A program made the translations under genes and the position numbers. Below, piece by piece: positions 3,304 to 41,501 of a stretch of 41,501 nucleotides of DNA; position 1 is the first letter of the stretch; the number at the start of each line of letters is the position of its first letter. Source of the DNA: Gammaproteobacteria bacterium F7 (lineage in GTDB: Bacteria; Pseudomonadota; Gammaproteobacteria; Pseudomonadales; IMCC2047); contig LUKI01000021.1 of assembly GCA_001593685.1 (NCBI GenBank), positions 1 to 41,501 of the forward strand, written 5' to 3'. The notes under the pieces are model-generated. The model was not told where the DNA came from and did not search any database. It worked only from the letters and a program-made list of their open reading frames with translations.

Positions 3304-3849
3304 TTAATTTTTTCCTACCACCTTGTCCTTGAGCTCTAGCATTTTGCTAACACCGGCACCAAGTTTCATCAGGCTTTGTAGTTGTTCTGCGGACATATTA
3401 TTCAGATGAGCTCCCCACTGCGTGAGCAGTTCAAGCAGATCATGCAGTTCAGCCATCTGTTGCTGAGCGTGCTCTTCCTCTTCATTAACGGGGGTGTCCA
3501 GCAGGTGATCTCTGAGCAATGACAGCGTTGGGTCTATTTCGCGCTTGCGCCTTTCTTCAAATACCGTTCTAGCCATGTCGGAAATGCTGCCGGCTGTTGT
3601 GAAGTAGTCTTTGCGGTCGCCAGGGATGCGTTCAAGCCGAATAAGCCGCCAGGACTGCAGTTCCTTTAGACCCATGCTGACATTGCCTCGACTGATATGT
3701 AACGCTTGAGAGATTTCATCGGCATTAAGTGAACTTGAACGCACCACTAAGAGTGCAAGAATTTGGCCTACGGTGCGGTTGAATCCCCACCGGCTGCTCA
3801 TCTCTCCAAAGTGAGATACGAATGCTTCTGCTTTTTGAGATAGTTTCAT
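3304..3849 (-). CDS. GbsR/MarR-family transcriptional regulator
   Basis: A 181-residue winged-helix DNA-binding protein. The N-terminal pattern KAEAFVSHFGEMSSRWGFNR and the helix-turn-helix DEISQALHISRGNVSMGLKEL (about residues 64-84) followed by the wing RLERIPGDRKDYFTT match the GbsR branch of MarR regulators. The C-terminal half is helical and probably dimerises. It is the first gene of the presumed operon with cydA-cydB, so it is likely to control the oxidase and itself. A 24-base palindrome sits 6 bases upstream of its start codon, over the predicted -10/+1 (see separate entry). The effector is unknown. Confidence 0.85.
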   Translation of the reverse strand: MKLSQKAEAFVSHFGEMSSRWGFNRTVGQILALLVVRSSSLNADEISQALHISRGNVSMGLKELQSWRLIRLERIPGDRKDYFTTAGSISDMARTVFEERRKREIDPTLSLLRDHLLDTPVNEEEEHAQQQMAELHDLLELLTQWGAHLNNMSAEQLQSLMKLGAGVSKMLELKDKVVGKN

Positions 3850-5538: not shown

Positions 5539-6633
5539 ATGAGTAAGCGCGTTTTTAACTTCGGTCCAGGTCCTGCCATGCTGCCAACAGCGGTTATGGA
5601 GCGTGCGCAAGCAGAGTTTCTTGATTACAACGGCATGGGCGTGTCCGTTGTTGAGCTGAGCCACCGTTCGCCGCAATTTATCGATATTATTGACCGTTGT
5701 GAGGCGCTATTCCGTGAATTGTCTGGCGTACCTGATAATTTCAAGATTTTTTACATGCACGGCGGCGCGCGGATGCAGTTCGCATCGATTCCGATGAACT
5801 TTATGCCACGTGTTGCGAAGCCGAAAGCGTTGTATTTTGAGACCGGTAATTTTGCCAAGCTGGCACGCGTAGAGGCGGAGCGTTACGGTGAGATTATCCG
5901 TGTTGTGGATGGCGAAAGCTGTGGTTACAGTGCCATTCCTTCCTTTGATCCATCGGCTATTGATCAGGATGCGGCTTATGCTCACTTGACCGCCAATAAC
6001 ACTATTTATGGTACGCGTTGGATGGAGTTCCCGGATACCGGCGATGTGCCACTAGTTGTCGATGCAACCTCTGAGCTGTTGTCCCGTGAAATGGATTACA
6101 ACCAGTTTGGTCTGGTCTATGCCGGTCTGCAGAAAAACCTAGGACCGTCTGGCGTGGCGATCATGGTGTGCCGTGAAGACCTGTTGGGTCACGCGATGCC
6201 ACACACGCCAACCATGTTGGATTTCAAGGTGTCTGCAGAAGAGCGTTCGCTGGCTAATACCACTAATACCTTTGCGATTTATCTGCTGATGTGTGTGCTG
6301 GAGTGGCTGAAAGAGCAGGGTGGTGTTGCTGCAATTGAAAAGGTCAACGAAGCAAAAGCTAAGATTCTTTATGATGCACTGGATGCTTCTGACTTCTACT
6401 CAGCTGTTGCGCATCCAGATTTTCGCTCGACAATGAACGTATCTTTCCATCTGCCGAATAATAACGCGTTGGCCGAGCAGTTTATTGCTGAAGCGTTGGA
6501 GCAGGATATGTATGCGCTTAAAGGTCATGCTGTTGTTGGTGGTATCCGTGCATCCATTTATAACTCGATGCCGGTTGAAGGTGTACAGCGTTTGGCTGAC
6601 TTTATGAAAGAGTTTGAGCGCAAAAATGGCTAA
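5539..6633 (+). CDS. serC: Phosphoserine aminotransferase
   Basis: SerC converts 3-phosphohydroxypyruvate and glutamate to phosphoserine in serine synthesis, and also acts in pyridoxal phosphate synthesis. It is a class V PLP aminotransferase of 364 residues, the usual length. Recognisable parts are NFGPGPAMLP at the N-terminus, the phosphate-site-like HGGARMQF, and the PLP lysine (about Lys199) in GLQKNLGPSG. The C-terminus LKGHAVVGGIRASIYNSMP is characteristic. The ATG has AAGGA upstream. A good terminator follows. The gene stands alone and is not joined to aroA or pheA as in some relatives. Confidence 0.97.
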   Translation: MSKRVFNFGPGPAMLPTAVMERAQAEFLDYNGMGVSVVELSHRSPQFIDIIDRCEALFRELSGVPDNFKIFYMHGGARMQFASIPMNFMPRVAKPKALYFETGNFAKLARVEAERYGEIIRVVDGESCGYSAIPSFDPSAIDQDAAYAHLTANNTIYGTRWMEFPDTGDVPLVVDATSELLSREMDYNQFGLVYAGLQKNLGPSGVAIMVCREDLLGHAMPHTPTMLDFKVSAEERSLANTTNTFAIYLLMCVLEWLKEQGGVAAIEKVNEAKAKILYDALDASDFYSAVAHPDFRSTMNVSFHLPNNNALAEQFIAEALEQDMYALKGHAVVGGIRASIYNSMPVEGVQRLADFMKEFERKNG

Positions 6634-26279: not shown

Positions 26280-29200
26280 TTAATCGAATTGTTCCTGCCA
26301 GTAAATAATACGATCATTGCCGCGATATTGGCCGAACAGGGCGCGTCCAGCCGGTGACTGGTCTGTACCATCGCCATTAAAATCAAACCTTAGCCAGTCA
26401 GGCACCACAAATGGTGTTGAGGCGGCGGGCAAATCGAGATAGATATCCAATGGACCGCTGGCATTAGGCGCGGATAATTGAAGTGTGCTTTCACCACTAA
26501 GAATTGGACCGAAGGCTAAAGGATTAACATTGTTTGGACTGAGAGAGTCGTTGGTGTTGCCATCTACGACCTTAAATTGAGGCGCGCTGAATTGGCTGCC
26601 AGGGCATATGATTGCGCTGGCGCTATCATCAGTGTTTGTGATGAATGCTGAGTAGTTCCAATACTCTGTGCGAACGGGTACCCCGAGTGGCAGAGCTTCC
26701 GGGCCAAATGCATTATCAATGACCAAACGTCCATAGCGCTGATTGCTTACGCCAATTAAAGCGTGATCATTATTGGCCGTGTTATCCGTATTTAGGTTTA
26801 TATCGGTTATGGTTACGCCGTCGGCATCAATAGGCAGCACGCCAATTTGTGCCGAAAAGGGGCCATCAATATGGCTACTTCCCACGCCTGCCCGTGCGAG
26901 AGTCAGGGACGATGTTAATGTACCTGTGCCGTTGTTCCATGCAAATCCAGTGTTGCTGTGTGCCAAGCGGCTGCTCAGCAGGATTGGAGGGGTGGGTGCT
27001 GGTGGGGCTGCACTGGTATCAATCGCGCCAAAATCAAGGCTGCCTAATGTTGGTGAAGATGAGGTGTCGAGACGAATAAAGTCGCTGCGGTAATTGGTCG
27101 TGGTGCTGCCGGTAGTGTTTTTAGCGGTGAGGGTATAGAGCGCCGTGAAGGGTTGGCCCAGGTAGCTGAAGTTGCCAGTGGTGCAGGCATCAATGATTGA
27201 TCCCCCGCTGAGGGTGAAGTGGTCCGGGTAAAAGCGGCCGATATTGGCGCTGTTTGATGCGGCAATCGTTTCTCCAAGATAACTGGGCATGGTAGCTGTG
27301 ATGCTAAAAACGCCCACCTCGGGAATAGTTTGATTGCTGATATCATGGCTGCCATTATCTGAAGCGCCCATGTTAAAGCTGACAACGCCTAATCCAGTGT
27401 TTGTACCGGGTAAGGGCGCAATTAAATTGGATGTTAGACTGATATTATTTAATTGAAAATTTGGCGTGGTGCTGTTGCCTACGCAGAAATTGCTATGGCT
27501 TTCGCCGCTGGTTTGCCAGGCTACGCCTTTGATGCGCAGGTTGAACATTTCACCGGCTTTTTTGAATAGACTACAGGTTGCGTTTCCTGCGGCGCAGTTT
27601 GCATTAACATCGGTTGCTTCTACACAAATCCCTGCGGGTTTAACGACAAAAGGGTTACTACTACCGCTCATATAGTTATTCGATGGGCTGCTGACACCAA
27701 GGGCAATGCTGTAGCGGGCGTGCAGGCGAATTTGACCGGCATCCGGGTAATTAAGAGTAAAGGTGGCCGTGCTGTCGCTGGCATCGCCAAAGTCTAGGGA
27801 AACGGGCGTGTAATTGTTGGCAGAGCCACCACTGTTAGCGCTGATGTTGGTACTGTTGATTGCGACTCGTTGACTGCTGCAAGTGCCGGGATTTAGGCAC
27901 TCAAAGCCCATCTCAATATCGTTGTTATTAATTAGTGCGGCTTCGCAGGCTCCTGTATCGGGACTGGTGCGAATGGCTTGTAACTCCAGAGTTTGAGATC
28001 CGGGGCTGATATTGGAATTTTTTCCCGAAATCTGTGTGTCAATGCTGTCGGCTGTATTGTCGGCGAGGAAGCGGAAACCCGCTTCGGCAAAGTTGAGATC
28101 TTGATCTTCACTTGCTGTAGCGTTACCGCTGGTTTCGGAAATGCTGCCATCGCTGGCGTTGATATTGACTGTTTCTACAGCCGTATTTTTCAATCCCAGC
28201 TGAACACGGCCGTTATCTGAGCCTGTAAAGCTATAAGTGGCTACGCCATCGTTGGAGGTGCCATTATTCAGGGTGCCATTGCCATTAATGATGGACCAGT
28301 CACCGCGATTGGTGGAGGTGCTAAGGTTAACGGTTTGGCTGTAACTGGTGTCATTGCTGTGATCAGGCTGGTGTGCTTCGAGAGTAATGGTTGCCGGAGT
28401 ACAGGTGATGGCATTACCGCTGTGGCTAATGCTGAGATGATCTGTTGATGCAGCGCGGCATGTATGGCGCTCCGCCATAATGGCTTGGATTTCAGCGGCT
28501 GTTAAGGCGTTTTCGTAAATACGCACTTCATCAATGAGACCATTAAACCGCCAGTTGGCACTGGCTTCGCTTCCCGCTCCATTGACTTCGCCACCAATAC
28601 TGGCTCGGCCGGAGTCGCTGCCCCAGGTGCCACTGTAGGTGGAGGAGGTGCCGCCAGTGCTCAACGCAACGGCGCTGCCATTAACGTAGATCTGTCGAGT
28701 TTTGGCTGTCGCGTCGTGTACCGCTGCGACAAAGACCCAACTATTTTGGCTAATGACAGCATTTTGGGTATCCACTGACACCGGTGAAACTGATCGGGAG
28801 AAGAAGCGTAATTTACCGTTTCCAGCGTCGCCCAAACTGAAAGCAAAGCCACCACTGTTATTTTGATCGTCGGCGAAAATACGTTGATCATTGCCCAGAC
28901 TTCGAGCATTAATCCAACCGGAAATTGTGAAACTACCGGTTAGGTTTGGGAAGGATGAAGGTAAAAGAACGTGGTCGTTGTTGCCATCGAAGTTACCGTA
29001 CCCACAGGTGCCCGGGTTGCCCGAAAGGGCTGGCGATGATAATTGAGTATTGGCACCATTGACGGCATTGGCATGGTAGCTGTTGGCGCTATTATCCTGC
29101 ACCTGGTTGGCTGCATTATTCCAGACAGCTTCGTCGAAACGCCATTCGGCAATCGGGGTGGGTTTGGGACATGCCTGGTAGCTGATTTGCAGGTCGTCGA

Positions 29201-30452
29201 TATACATCCCAATGCGGGCATTGGTTCCTGAGCTTAAAAAACGAATGCGTGTATTCGTCGAGGTGTAAGCGCTGATATCAAATGATTGCGGAGTTGCAGT
29301 AAAGCTGGTGCCGGTAATGTTATAGGTTTGTAGCGTTGCCCAGCTGTTGCCGTCATCGGATGAGATATCCAATGTGACAGATTCTGCTCCTGACGACCTG
29401 CCAGTGAAGTAATTAAATGAAAGGGTAGCCGAAGCGGCTGTGCTTAAATTTACTTCCCGTTGCACGCCGATATTAGCCCAGCTGCTGGGGCTGTTTGGTT
29501 GACCTATACGCAAACAGTTGCCGCTGCTGCAGTTGCTGGAATTTACTCGGGAAATACCACTATTGGGGCCATTGCTTTCACCAATTTCCAACCAGCTGGT
29601 TGCCCAGTTTTGTGAGCCGTTATTCTGGCTATAGGAAACACTGTTGAAATTATCGGCGACACTTTCGGCTGAACAGCTGCTAGCCGTTGACCAGGTTGCC
29701 GCGAAACCCGCTCGCGTGCCGCCTGCATTGCTGGTAAACCGGACCAGCATGGCACCAGCATTCGCAGTAACATCCGCGGGTATTGATCTTCCTGTTAAAG
29801 TTGCTATTAAGGGAGCGCTGCTGCTGGTGCCGTTATAAACTCTTAATTGGTCGGCATTTTGCAAATTAAACTGCGAGAAATTCAGGGTAATAGTGCCGCC
29901 CCCGGTGGGCTGGATTAAGAAACGGCAATCTTCTCTGTTGCTATAATTGCCGCTGGGGCCGCCAGAATCATACAGAGTGCCGGTTGAATCAGAGGATGAG
30001 TTGTCTGTACACAGAGTGTTGCTGCCAGTGCCGCCATTGGATGCTAGCCAGGTGGCTTGAAAGCCTGATCTTTGGACTGAGAAATCTGAGCGGTGAACCA
30101 CCAGCATTGAGCCTGAAGTTGCGATAACATCGTTAGGTATTGAGCTACCTGTAAAACGCCCAATCAGTGGTGCTGAGGAGGTTGTGCCATCATAAACGAA
30201 CACATAGTCATAGCTGTTTTCGTAATTGAACTGGCTGAAGGATAAGGTGATGCTGCCTCCGCCAGATTGAATCAGAAAGGAGCAGTTTTCATTGTTTTGA
30301 TAACGTCCCCCGGCTCCTCCAGAGTCGGTGAGTGATCCGCTGCTGGCGTTCGATGAGTTGTTAGTGCAGATGTTGTCAGCGCGAGCGGCCATTGAGGTGA
30401 AGCATATGGCAAATAGCAGTAACACTGACAGTAGGCGGTGAAGGTTTACCAT
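26280..30452 (-). CDS. Large secreted MshQ-like (DUF6701) protein with two CUB domains and a LamG domain
   Basis: A 1390-residue exported protein. Order of parts: signal peptide (about 1-26; LLSVLLLFAICFTSMAARA); CUB domain 1 (about 29-136, with its disulfide pair CTNN...NENC and YDYVFVYDG); CUB domain 2 (about 147-255, YSNREDCRFL and DQLRVYNG); a MAM-like jelly-roll (about 258-430); a LamG/concanavalin domain (about 434-655; GSFTISGWINARSLG and FNGLIDEVRIYENAL); then the long DUF6701 beta region ending YRGNDRIIYWQEQFD, as in MshQ of the MSHA pilus cluster. It is an isolated copy with no msh genes nearby. The ATG at 30452 gives the signal peptide. Low-complexity Ser/Asn content fits a surface adhesin; that role is inferred. 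Confidence 0.85.
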   Translation of the reverse strand: MVNLHRLLSVLLLFAICFTSMAARADNICTNNSSNASSGSLTDSGGAGGRYQNNENCSFLIQSGGGSITLSFSQFNYENSYDYVFVYDGTTSSAPLIGRFTGSSIPNDVIATSGSMLVVHRSDFSVQRSGFQATWLASNGGTGSNTLCTDNSSSDSTGTLYDSGGPSGNYSNREDCRFLIQPTGGGTITLNFSQFNLQNADQLRVYNGTSSSAPLIATLTGRSIPADVTANAGAMLVRFTSNAGGTRAGFAATWSTASSCSAESVADNFNSVSYSQNNGSQNWATSWLEIGESNGPNSGISRVNSSNCSSGNCLRIGQPNSPSSWANIGVQREVNLSTAASATLSFNYFTGRSSGAESVTLDISSDDGNSWATLQTYNITGTSFTATPQSFDISAYTSTNTRIRFLSSGTNARIGMYIDDLQISYQACPKPTPIAEWRFDEAVWNNAANQVQDNSANSYHANAVNGANTQLSSPALSGNPGTCGYGNFDGNNDHVLLPSSFPNLTGSFTISGWINARSLGNDQRIFADDQNNSGGFAFSLGDAGNGKLRFFSRSVSPVSVDTQNAVISQNSWVFVAAVHDATAKTRQIYVNGSAVALSTGGTSSTYSGTWGSDSGRASIGGEVNGAGSEASANWRFNGLIDEVRIYENALTAAEIQAIMAERHTCRAASTDHLSISHSGNAITCTPATITLEAHQPDHSNDTSYSQTVNLSTSTNRGDWSIINGNGTLNNGTSNDGVATYSFTGSDNGRVQLGLKNTAVETVNINASDGSISETSGNATASEDQDLNFAEAGFRFLADNTADSIDTQISGKNSNISPGSQTLELQAIRTSPDTGACEAALINNNDIEMGFECLNPGTCSSQRVAINSTNISANSGGSANNYTPVSLDFGDASDSTATFTLNYPDAGQIRLHARYSIALGVSSPSNNYMSGSSNPFVVKPAGICVEATDVNANCAAGNATCSLFKKAGEMFNLRIKGVAWQTSGESHSNFCVGNSTTPNFQLNNISLTSNLIAPLPGTNTGLGVVSFNMGASDNGSHDISNQTIPEVGVFSITATMPSYLGETIAASNSANIGRFYPDHFTLSGGSIIDACTTGNFSYLGQPFTALYTLTAKNTTGSTTTNYRSDFIRLDTSSSPTLGSLDFGAIDTSAAPPAPTPPILLSSRLAHSNTGFAWNNGTGTLTSSLTLARAGVGSSHIDGPFSAQIGVLPIDADGVTITDINLNTDNTANNDHALIGVSNQRYGRLVIDNAFGPEALPLGVPVRTEYWNYSAFITNTDDSASAIICPGSQFSAPQFKVVDGNTNDSLSPNNVNPLAFGPILSGESTLQLSAPNASGPLDIYLDLPAASTPFVVPDWLRFDFNGDGTDQSPAGRALFGQYRGNDRIIYWQEQFD

Positions 30453-31224: not shown

Positions 31225-32322
31225 ATGCTGGAAACCAACGCAATTACTCAAGCTCTCAAGGAACTTCAGGAGCGCACCGACGTGCTAAGGGGTTATCTTG
31301 ACTATGCTGAGAAAAAAGATCGGCTGGAAGAGGTTGAGCGTGAGCTAGAGGATTCCGCTGTTTGGGATGAGCCTGAGCGTGCCCAGGCGTTGGGTAAAGA
31401 GCGTTCTCAGCTGGAAAATATTGTGGCCACCATTGATCGTCTCGATAGTGGTATTAGCGATGGTCATGAGCTGTTGGCGATGGCTGTCGAGGAAGACGAC
31501 GAAGATACCGTCAATGAGGTCTCTGCTGAAATAGAAACGCTGGACGCACAACTTGCCAAGCTGGAATTTCGGCGCATGTTTTCCGGCGAGATGGACGAGA
31601 ATAGCGCCTTTCTGGATATTCAGGCGGGCTCTGGTGGTACAGAAGCGCAGGATTGGGCAGAAATGCTGCTGCGTATGTACCTGCGCTGGGGTGAGCAGAA
31701 GGGTTTTAAGGTTGAGTTGATGGAAGTCTCTGCAGGTGACGTGGCTGGCATTAAAGGTGCGACGATCAAGTTTGAGGGCGAATATGCCTTTGGCTGGCTG
31801 CGTACGGAAACGGGTGTTCACCGTTTGGTGCGAAAATCCCCCTTCGATTCTGGCAGTCGTCGTCACACGTCTTTTTCTGCGGTGTTTGTGTCGCCGGAAA
31901 TTGATGACAACGTTGAGATTGATATTAATCCAGCGGATCTGCGAATTGATACTTACCGTGCCAGTGGTGCTGGCGGACAGCACGTCAACAAGACTGACTC
32001 GGCCGTGCGGATTACCCACGAGCCGACCAATGTGGTGGTGCAGTGTCAGAGCCAGCGTTCGCAACATCAGAACAAAGACTTTGCCATGAAGCAGCTGCGC
32101 GCCAAGCTCTATGAGCTGGAGATGCAGAAGCGCAATGATGCGGCGCAAGCCCAGGAAGACAACAAGGCCGATATCGGCTGGGGCAGTCAGATTCGCTCCT
32201 ATGTGCTGGACTCCTCGCGTATCAAGGACCTGCGCACCAATGTAGAAACATCCAATACCCAGGCTGTGCTTGATGGCGGGCTGGATATGTTTATTGAAGC
32301 CTCGTTAAAAGCGGGCCTGTAA
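31225..32322 (+). CDS. prfB: Peptide chain release factor 2, without the usual frameshift
   Basis: RF2 ends translation at UGA and UAA. It has 365 residues, the full length of E. coli RF2, in one uninterrupted frame. The codon-recognition SPF motif is in [15 protein letters not shown] and the peptidyl-release GGQ is at residues 250-252. In E. coli and many bacteria the early coding region needs a +1 frameshift at CUU-UGA-C; here the DNA reads AAGGGGTTATCTTGAC, with CTT-GAC in frame, so no shift is needed (see finding). lysS follows 49 bases downstream, as in E. coli. Confidence 0.97.
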
Positions 32323-38688: not shown

Positions 38689-40261
38689 TGTTTTTCGCCT
38701 GTTTTGCGGTGTTTGGGTAGTCCAGGGTGTAGTGCAAGCCACGACTTTCCTTGCGCGCCATGGCGGAGCGAATAATCAGATCGGCAACACAGATTAAATT
38801 CCGTAGTTCCAGCAGGTCGTTACTGACTTTGTAATTGCTATAGTATTCAGCAATTTCCCGCTTCAACAGGGCGATGCGGTGTTCGGCTCGCTGTAGTCGC
38901 TTGTCGGTACGGACGATGCCAACATAATCCCACATAAAGCGCCTCAGCTCGTCCCAGTTATGGGAAATAATGACGTCTTCGTCTGAGTCGGTCACTTGGC
39001 TTTCATCCCAGTCAGGGGCCTTTGGAGGCTCGGCAACCCGCTCAAAATTATCGTTAATATCTTTGGCGGCGGCATCGGCAAAGACCAGGCATTCAAGCAG
39101 CGAATTGCTGGCTAAACGGTTGGCGCCATGGAAGCCTGTGAACGCGGTTTCTCCTATCGCATATAGCTGGGCAACATCAGTTCGTCCGCGCAGGTCCGTC
39201 ATGACACCGCCACAGGTATAATGCGCAGCAGGAACCACTGGGATTGCTTGTTGGGTGATATCGATACCAAACTTTAAGCAGCGTTTATGGATGGTTGGAA
39301 AATGTTCAAGGATGAAATCATCTGGCTTGTGGCTGATATCCAGATATAAATGGTCGCAACCCAGGCGTTTCATTTCATGGTCAATGGCACGAGCGACAAT
39401 ATCACGAGGCGCTAGCTCTCCACGGCTGTCAAAGTCATCCATAAAGCGTTCGCCGCTGGGTAGTTTCAGCAGAGCGCCTTCGCCGCGCAGAGCCTCGCTA
39501 ATTAGAAAAGACTTCGCCTGAGGATGGTAGAGGCAGGTCGGGTGAAACTGATTGAACTCCATGTTGGCGACGCGACAGCCTGCTCGCCAGGCCATGGCAA
39601 TACCGTCACCGCTGGCCCCATCCGGGTTGCTGGTATACAGATAACTTTTGCTGGCACCGCCAGAGGCTATCGCGACAAAACGAGCCTGAAACAATTCGAC
39701 GGAATCGTTGTGACGGTTCAACACGTAAGCGCCAACGCAGCCGCTACCGGTTAAGTCCAATTTCTCTCGTGTGATTAAATCAATGGCGACTCGGTGTTCA
39801 AAGAGGTCGATATTGCTGTGCTCTTTAACACGCTTGATCAGGGTGGTTGAAATGGCTCGTCCGGTGGCGTCTGCAGCATGGATAATGCGACGGTGGCTGT
39901 GGCCGCCCTCTTTGGTGAGGTGATAACTGCCGTTGCTGTTGGCGCTATCTTCGGTAAAAGGGACGCCCTGCTCAATCAGCCAGTCGATACAGGCTTTGCT
40001 TTGTCCAATGGTAAAACGAACAGCGTCGTTATCGCATAATCCGGCGCCGGCATTTAGAGTGTCTGACACATGAGCATCGACGGTGTCCGTGCTGTCAATG
40101 ACGCCCGCGACGCCGCCTTGAGCGTAGTAGGTCGAACCACCTGTCGCACTGTTTTTGCAAAGCAGCGCAACGCGGAATCTATCTGCTAGTTTTAGCGCCA
40201 GAGTGAGGCCCGCGGCACCACTGCCGATAACCAGAATATCGTGTTGGAAATGTTGTGTCAT
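38639..40261 (-). CDS. nadB: L-aspartate oxidase
   Basis: First enzyme of NAD synthesis: oxidises L-aspartate to iminoaspartate with FAD. It has 540 residues. The FAD-binding [14 protein letters not shown] is near the N-terminus, with [12 protein letters not shown], the substrate-site HPTCLYHP and [10 protein letters not shown], the FAD-site [21 protein letters not shown], and a helical C-terminal domain (about residues 430-540). It belongs to the same flavoprotein superfamily as succinate dehydrogenase. The start is the ATG at 40261; the promoter lies in the 384 bases shared with rpoE. Confidence 0.97.
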
Positions 40262-40645: not shown

Positions 40646-41224
40646 ATGTTGAACGAACAGGAAACTGATAAACAGTTAGTTGCGCGTGTCCAAAAAGGCG
40701 ATAAGCGGGCCTTTGATCTACTGGTGCTTAAATACCAGCATAAGATCTTTGGTTTAATTAGCCGTTACATTAAAGATCACCATGAGGTGATGGATGTTGC
40801 TCAGGAGGCTTTTATTAAAGCCTATCGAGCTATTGGTCGTTTCCGCGGCGATAGTGCGTTTTATACCTGGTTGTACCGGATTGCCATTAATACGGCAAAA
40901 AATCACCTGGTTTCCAGAAGCCGTCGCCCCCCAGATACCGATGTTGATGTGATGGATGCGGAATATTATGAAAGCGCCAGCCGTTTAAAGGATAATGCCT
41001 CTCCCGATGAGGAGGTGCATAAGCAGGAGCTTGAAGCTGCTGTTTTCAAGGCAATTGAACAGTTGCCTGAAGATTTAAAAGCAGCGGTGACGTTACGAGA
41101 GTTTGACGGAATGAGCTATGAAGAGATCGCAGAGGTAATGCAGTGCCCGGTGGGTACGGTGCGATCAAGAATTTTCAGGGCTCGAGAATCAATTGATAAA
41201 CATATTTGTCATTTAATTGACTAA
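40646..41224 (+). CDS. rpoE: RNA polymerase sigma-E factor
   Basis: The ECF sigma factor of the envelope stress response (RpoE/AlgU), 192 residues. Region 2 shows FDLLVLKYQHKIFGLISRYI, VAQEAFIKAYRAIGRFRGDS and FYTWLYRIAINTAKNHL; region 4 shows FDGMSYEEIAEVMQCPVGTV with the helix-turn-helix. It is transcribed divergently from nadB and followed by its anti-sigma factor. Confidence 0.98.
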   Translation: MLNEQETDKQLVARVQKGDKRAFDLLVLKYQHKIFGLISRYIKDHHEVMDVAQEAFIKAYRAIGRFRGDSAFYTWLYRIAINTAKNHLVSRSRRPPDTDVDVMDAEYYESASRLKDNASPDEEVHKQELEAAVFKAIEQLPEDLKAAVTLREFDGMSYEEIAEVMQCPVGTVRSRIFRARESIDKHICHLID

Positions 41225-41302
41225 GTTTATGACAGGTGTGCTCGGTGCCAGACTAAATCGGCGCCAATCAGACCAATGCCAAAAAATAAGAGGCAAATAC
41301 AG

Positions 41303-41501
41303 ATGAGCGAAAGTTTGCGTGAATCAATTTCGGCGTTAGTGGATGACGAAGCACAGGAGTTGGAACTCCACCGCGTATTGGCAAGTATGGAGGAAGATGA
41401 AGATAAAGAGCTGCGCCACACTTGGCGTCGTTATCAGGCTGCCAGTTTTGCTATGAGACGGCAAGTGTGGCGCAGCTCTTTATCTTCATCTTCCTCCATA
41501 C
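41303..41501 (+). CDS. rseA: Anti-sigma-E factor RseA/MucA-like, cut by the window edge and spoiled at its end
   Basis: Begins MSESLRESISALVDDEAQEL, the N-terminal domain that binds sigma-E, then HRVLASMEED and HTWRRYQAASFAMRR, all like RseA/MucA. The ATG at 41303 follows rpoE by 78 bases. From about residue 54 the frame runs through the copied arm of an inverted repeat and reads QVWRSSLSSSSSI, unlike the family. I trust only about the first 53 residues. The true gene should continue beyond the window with a membrane segment and periplasmic domain. Confidence 0.85.
   Translation, partial: MSESLRESISALVDDEAQELELHRVLASMEEDEDKELRHTWRRYQAASFAMRRQVWRSSLSSSSSI
41385..41501. repeat. Perfect 40-bp inverted repeat at the window end
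   Basis: 41385-41424 is the exact reverse complement of 41462-41501, with a 37-base spacer. The right arm ends at the last base of the window. The arms lie within the rseA reading frame. Most likely a fold-back artefact (chimeric join) at the contig end. Confidence 0.97.

Follow-up and report, generated by a model that had tools for sequence, protein, structure and literature searches.

Chimeras formed during multiple displacement amplification (MDA) have a characteristic published signature. Lasken and Stockwell (2007; PMC1855051) recovered 475 chimeras from one MDA-amplified E. coli cell, 85% of which were inversions with an intervening deletion, and the joined partners mostly lay less than 10 kb apart. 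Priming involved 2–21 complementary bases, and in the model proposed there a displaced 3′ end re-anneals onto a nearby displaced strand (PMC1855051). The frequency given in a marine single-cell study is one chimera per 13–27 kb of single-cell MDA product (PMC2668756).

The stretch analyzed here (the window) is the entire contig C21, 41,501 bases in length and one of the 214 contigs of a 2.58-Mb draft genome that is approximately 86% complete. At its 3′ end an inverted repeat is present, in which positions 41462–41501 (minus strand) are the perfect reverse complement of 41385–41424 (plus strand) at 40 of 40 bases, the two arms being separated by a spacer of 37 nt (41425–41461, no strand assigned). 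With one mismatch tolerated, the arms lengthen to 45 nt (41385–41429 and 41457–41501) at 98% complementarity. The outer edge of the right arm is the final base of the contig (41501) and, as the window is the whole of C21, the arm stops at a true contig end rather than at the edge of a window. An exact 40-bp fold-back ending on the last base, as claimed in a preliminary description of this DNA, is thus what the contig contains. The right arm is very probably a chimeric tip, produced when the DNA was whole-genome amplified (most likely by MDA, using phi29 polymerase), and the mirror-image stretch is almost certainly absent from the real genome of the bacterium.

The repeat is located downstream of an intact gene for an ECF sigma factor of the rpoE/algU type (40646–41224, plus strand; 192 aa), recognized as an open reading frame with the Pfam domains Sigma70_r2 and Sigma70_r4_2 and 75% identity to relatives. 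On the same strand follows the genuine 5′ part of rseA/mucA (41276–41461), the anti-sigma-E gene, whose start is probably the ATG at 41303. Its product matches RseA_N (PF03872), the N-terminal sigma-E binding domain, with 28–29 bits at a cut-off of 24. Comparison with a genome of the same family gave 68% identity up to residue 62 (about Arg62, base 41461) and divergence from there on. Aligned with six relatives, the RseA of C21 agrees through RRYQAASFAMRR, which is encoded by the spacer and marks that segment as native rseA, after which QVWRSSLSSSSSI takes the place of the conserved (I/L/V/M)D(I/L) segment. This latter reading of the frame past 41461 is unlike that of any relative, and it leads into a Ser-rich tail that remains open to the contig end. 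The frame does therefore turn into non-family sequence on entering the arm, as had been described.

Which of the two arms is native can be read from the same alignment. The left arm has RseA homology on either side of it, and for this reason it is taken as the native template of the fold-back and the right arm as its inverted copy, at which the homology stops. The preliminary description had reached the same assignment by arguing that the left arm encodes conserved residues; the assignment stands, with a small correction to the argument, since the arm encodes approximately residues 37–50 (SMEEDEDKELRHTW), a mostly variable stretch of RseA with the conserved residues mainly flanking it.

A perfect repeat of this length within the gene had been called unexpected, and the relatives bear this out. 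Among 80 named relatives, the longest perfect inverted repeat in the 900 bp that follow rpoE was 13 nt and the usual length 9–11 nt, which places a perfect repeat of 40 nt far beyond chance. The rseA frames of relatives are intact, at about 200–275 codons, with rseB the next gene in close relatives, and the fold-back junction was absent from the 56 other genomes, all relatives, in which it was looked for. These comparisons bear on the idea that the repeat is a biological hairpin element inside rseA, such as a terminator, a REP-like element or an attenuator. Perfect arms with a short spacer would indeed fold, but the right arm stops precisely where the contig does, the left arm codes for an ordinary part of RseA, the repeat sequence occurs nowhere else in the genome and it has no counterpart among the relatives, so that the probability of such an element is negligible.

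The same kind of structure recurs at a minimum of nine other contig ends of the assembly. A total of 201 ends were scanned. For 91 contigs both ends were read, except that one contributed a single end, and for the 20 largest contigs the 5′ end; C126–C175 (read as N), C22–C35, C176–C214 and the 3′ ends of C1–C20 lay outside the scan. Ten ends, C21 included, terminate in a perfect inverted copy of sequence further inside their own contig. Besides the 3′ end of C21 (arm 40 nt, spacer 37 nt), fold-back tips occur at the 5′ ends of L112 (arm 48, spacer 57), L132 (27, 1,726), L160 (43, 614), L223 (39, 1,892), L230 (33, 842) and L246 (45, 590), and at the 3′ ends of L138 (47, 335), L236 (42, 2,809) and L238 (24, 1,765). 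The sequences of the ten tips are mutually unrelated, and every outer edge falls exactly at the contig end. As a control, the identical test was applied within the same contigs, at 40,000 internal cut points chosen at random; only one of these had an arm of at least 24 nt, corresponding to approximately 0.005 expected per 201 ends. The resulting binomial probability for 10 of 201 ends, approximately 2e-30, is a rough figure, as it rests on that single control match.

For five of the nine other tips, a second contig overlaps the tip by 70–197 bases (L104 over L132, L140 over L138, L116 over L223, L257 over L236 and L232 over L238). These contigs pass without a break through the point where the inverted arm begins, have 4, 4, 4, 6, and 7 bases in common with the arm, and then diverge. 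Since the overlapping contigs leave the fold-back at the junction, the inverted tips are false in these five cases, and the shared 4–7 bases are the microhomology where the switch happened. No second contig covering the C21 junction was found in the assembly; that the C21 tip is itself false, which is almost certain, rests on the rseA homology together with the parallel contig ends.

These parallels weigh heavily on the possibility of a real genomic inverted duplication, one that cuts RseA short at about 62 residues and leaves sigma-E freed or constitutively active. Truncations of mucA are known in Pseudomonas and, as given, the rseA frame of C21 does run into a non-family, Ser-rich tail that is open to the contig end. 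Against this, nine other ends carry the same structure with unrelated sequences, five of them contradicted by an overlapping contig, so that a real truncation needs the C21 end to be genuine while its parallels are false, and the relatives have intact rseA frames without such a repeat. A real duplication is accordingly regarded as highly improbable. There is no evidence of a broken anti-sigma factor, and the alternative raised earlier, in which a genuine hairpin disrupts RseA and sets sigma-E free, found no support.

A fold-back could also arise without whole-genome amplification, either from hairpin (snap-back) molecules formed in library preparation or from an artifact of the k-mer graph of the assembler. 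An exact arm of 40 nt could match a k-mer overlap, and errors of this type gather at contig ends. The arms of the ten tips, however, range from 24 to 48 nt instead of having the single fixed length that a k-mer overlap predicts, which ruled out a fixed overlap as the cause of the 40-nt arm; the spacers, at up to 2,809 nt, are too long for library snap-back; and the 4–7 nt of shared sequence at the five junctions that an overlapping contig contradicts, together with one direct chimera, fit MDA better. Such an origin is hence very unlikely, though less so than either a duplication or a hairpin element. Amplification is favored over a pure assembler artifact because the arms differ in length, the spacers extend to 2.8 kb and the microhomology is short. 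The preliminary description had attributed the fold-back to a chimera that formed in amplification or assembly and lies at a contig end. The nine similar ends, with the five contradicted among them, support that reading, and the three features just listed narrow it to amplification.

The direct case concerns the 3′ tip of L135 (contig C91), where 39 nt (5893–5931) are a direct copy of positions 3367–3405 in that contig. Another contig, L109, overlaps L135 up to 5892, where the match ends. This tip resembles a direct chimera that arose in the same way as the fold-backs. It was the one direct terminal copy in the scan of 91 contigs, compared with ten inverted copies in 201 ends.

If the tip of C21 did arise by amplification, its formation can be pictured as follows. 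A growing strand on which rseA had been copied to about 41461–41465 would be displaced, and its 3′ end would anneal, through a short and imperfect complement, to a displaced strand of that molecule lying close by. The switch probably happened at GACGGCAAG (41457–41465, plus strand), which is complementary at 8 of 9 positions to CTTGGCGTC (41421–41429) and to which we infer a priming role; this 8/9 pairing is a presumed site, as the share of native bases in it depends on the true continuation of C21. The first few bases of the right arm may accordingly be native, as priming microhomology. Extension of the annealed 3′ end would then copy 41424 back toward 41385. With no genuine coverage past the junction, the assembler would have extended the contig by approximately 40 bases of the chimeric read before breaking off. 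The remainder of rseA and rseB were not found elsewhere in the assembly, nor was there a match to RseA_C above the cut-off. Their absence fits such a coverage gap, in which case the chimeric read would have been the sole sequence left for extending the contig. On these grounds, the genome most likely derives from MDA-amplified DNA, the use of MDA being something we infer from the assembly, and the amplified source was probably a single cell.

A number of other features were noted in the same assembly. The gene prfB (release factor 2; 31225–32322) is a single open frame with GGTTATCTTGACTAT at the usual CTT-TGA-C programmed frameshift site of many bacteria, and this is therefore a copy without the programmed frameshift. 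On the minus strand, 26280–30452 encodes a secreted-looking protein of 1390 aa in which CUB-like and LamG-like stretches seem recognizable by eye and which is perhaps an MshQ-like pilus-operon protein. Elsewhere, a CRISPR array (28-nt repeats, GTTCACCGCCGCACAGGCGGCTTAGAAA; 32-nt spacers; type I-F-like by eye) occupies positions 1–720 of L227 (contig C49) and the 3′ end of L220 (contig C41), and seems to be split across the two. An inverted repeat-plus-spacer seems to make up the first ~55 bases of L227, and this 5′ start is probably another fold-back tip, situated within the CRISPR array.

In practical terms, the last 36–40 bases of C21 should be clipped or ignored, and the annotation should present rseA as incomplete because the contig ends within it, rather than as a pseudogene. 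The nine further tips (on L112, L132, L138, L160, L223, L230, L236, L238, and L246) likewise need clipping before terminal repeats are read, nor should inverted repeats at the contig ends of this draft be taken for hairpins, telomere-like ends or inversions. Scanning for terminal fold-backs may offer an inexpensive way of flagging assemblies that derive from MDA. The feature of C21 is in all likelihood a technical artifact with nothing novel about it, and a matter of quality control only.

Compared with the RseA/MucA proteins of rpoE/algU operons, the residues of C21 up to 41461 belong to the family and are encoded directly downstream of an rpoE/algU-type gene. The C21 copy differs in being truncated, for which the contig end and the chimeric tip are the sole causes; the transmembrane segment and the periplasmic C-terminal part lie beyond that end. 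Compared with the published MDA chimeras (PMC1855051), the tips described here, which presumably arose by MDA, are contig ends in an assembly and not single reads. In other respects the two are alike. The second segment is inverted, the intervening sequence is lost or short and direct joins are in the minority. The partner lies less than 10 kb away, with spacers of 37 nt in C21 and 57–2,809 nt at the nine other ends, and the complementarity at the five checked junctions (4, 4, 4, 6, and 7 nt) falls inside the published range of 2–21. As with those chimeras, many independent events, mostly inverted and few direct, occur in one DNA preparation.
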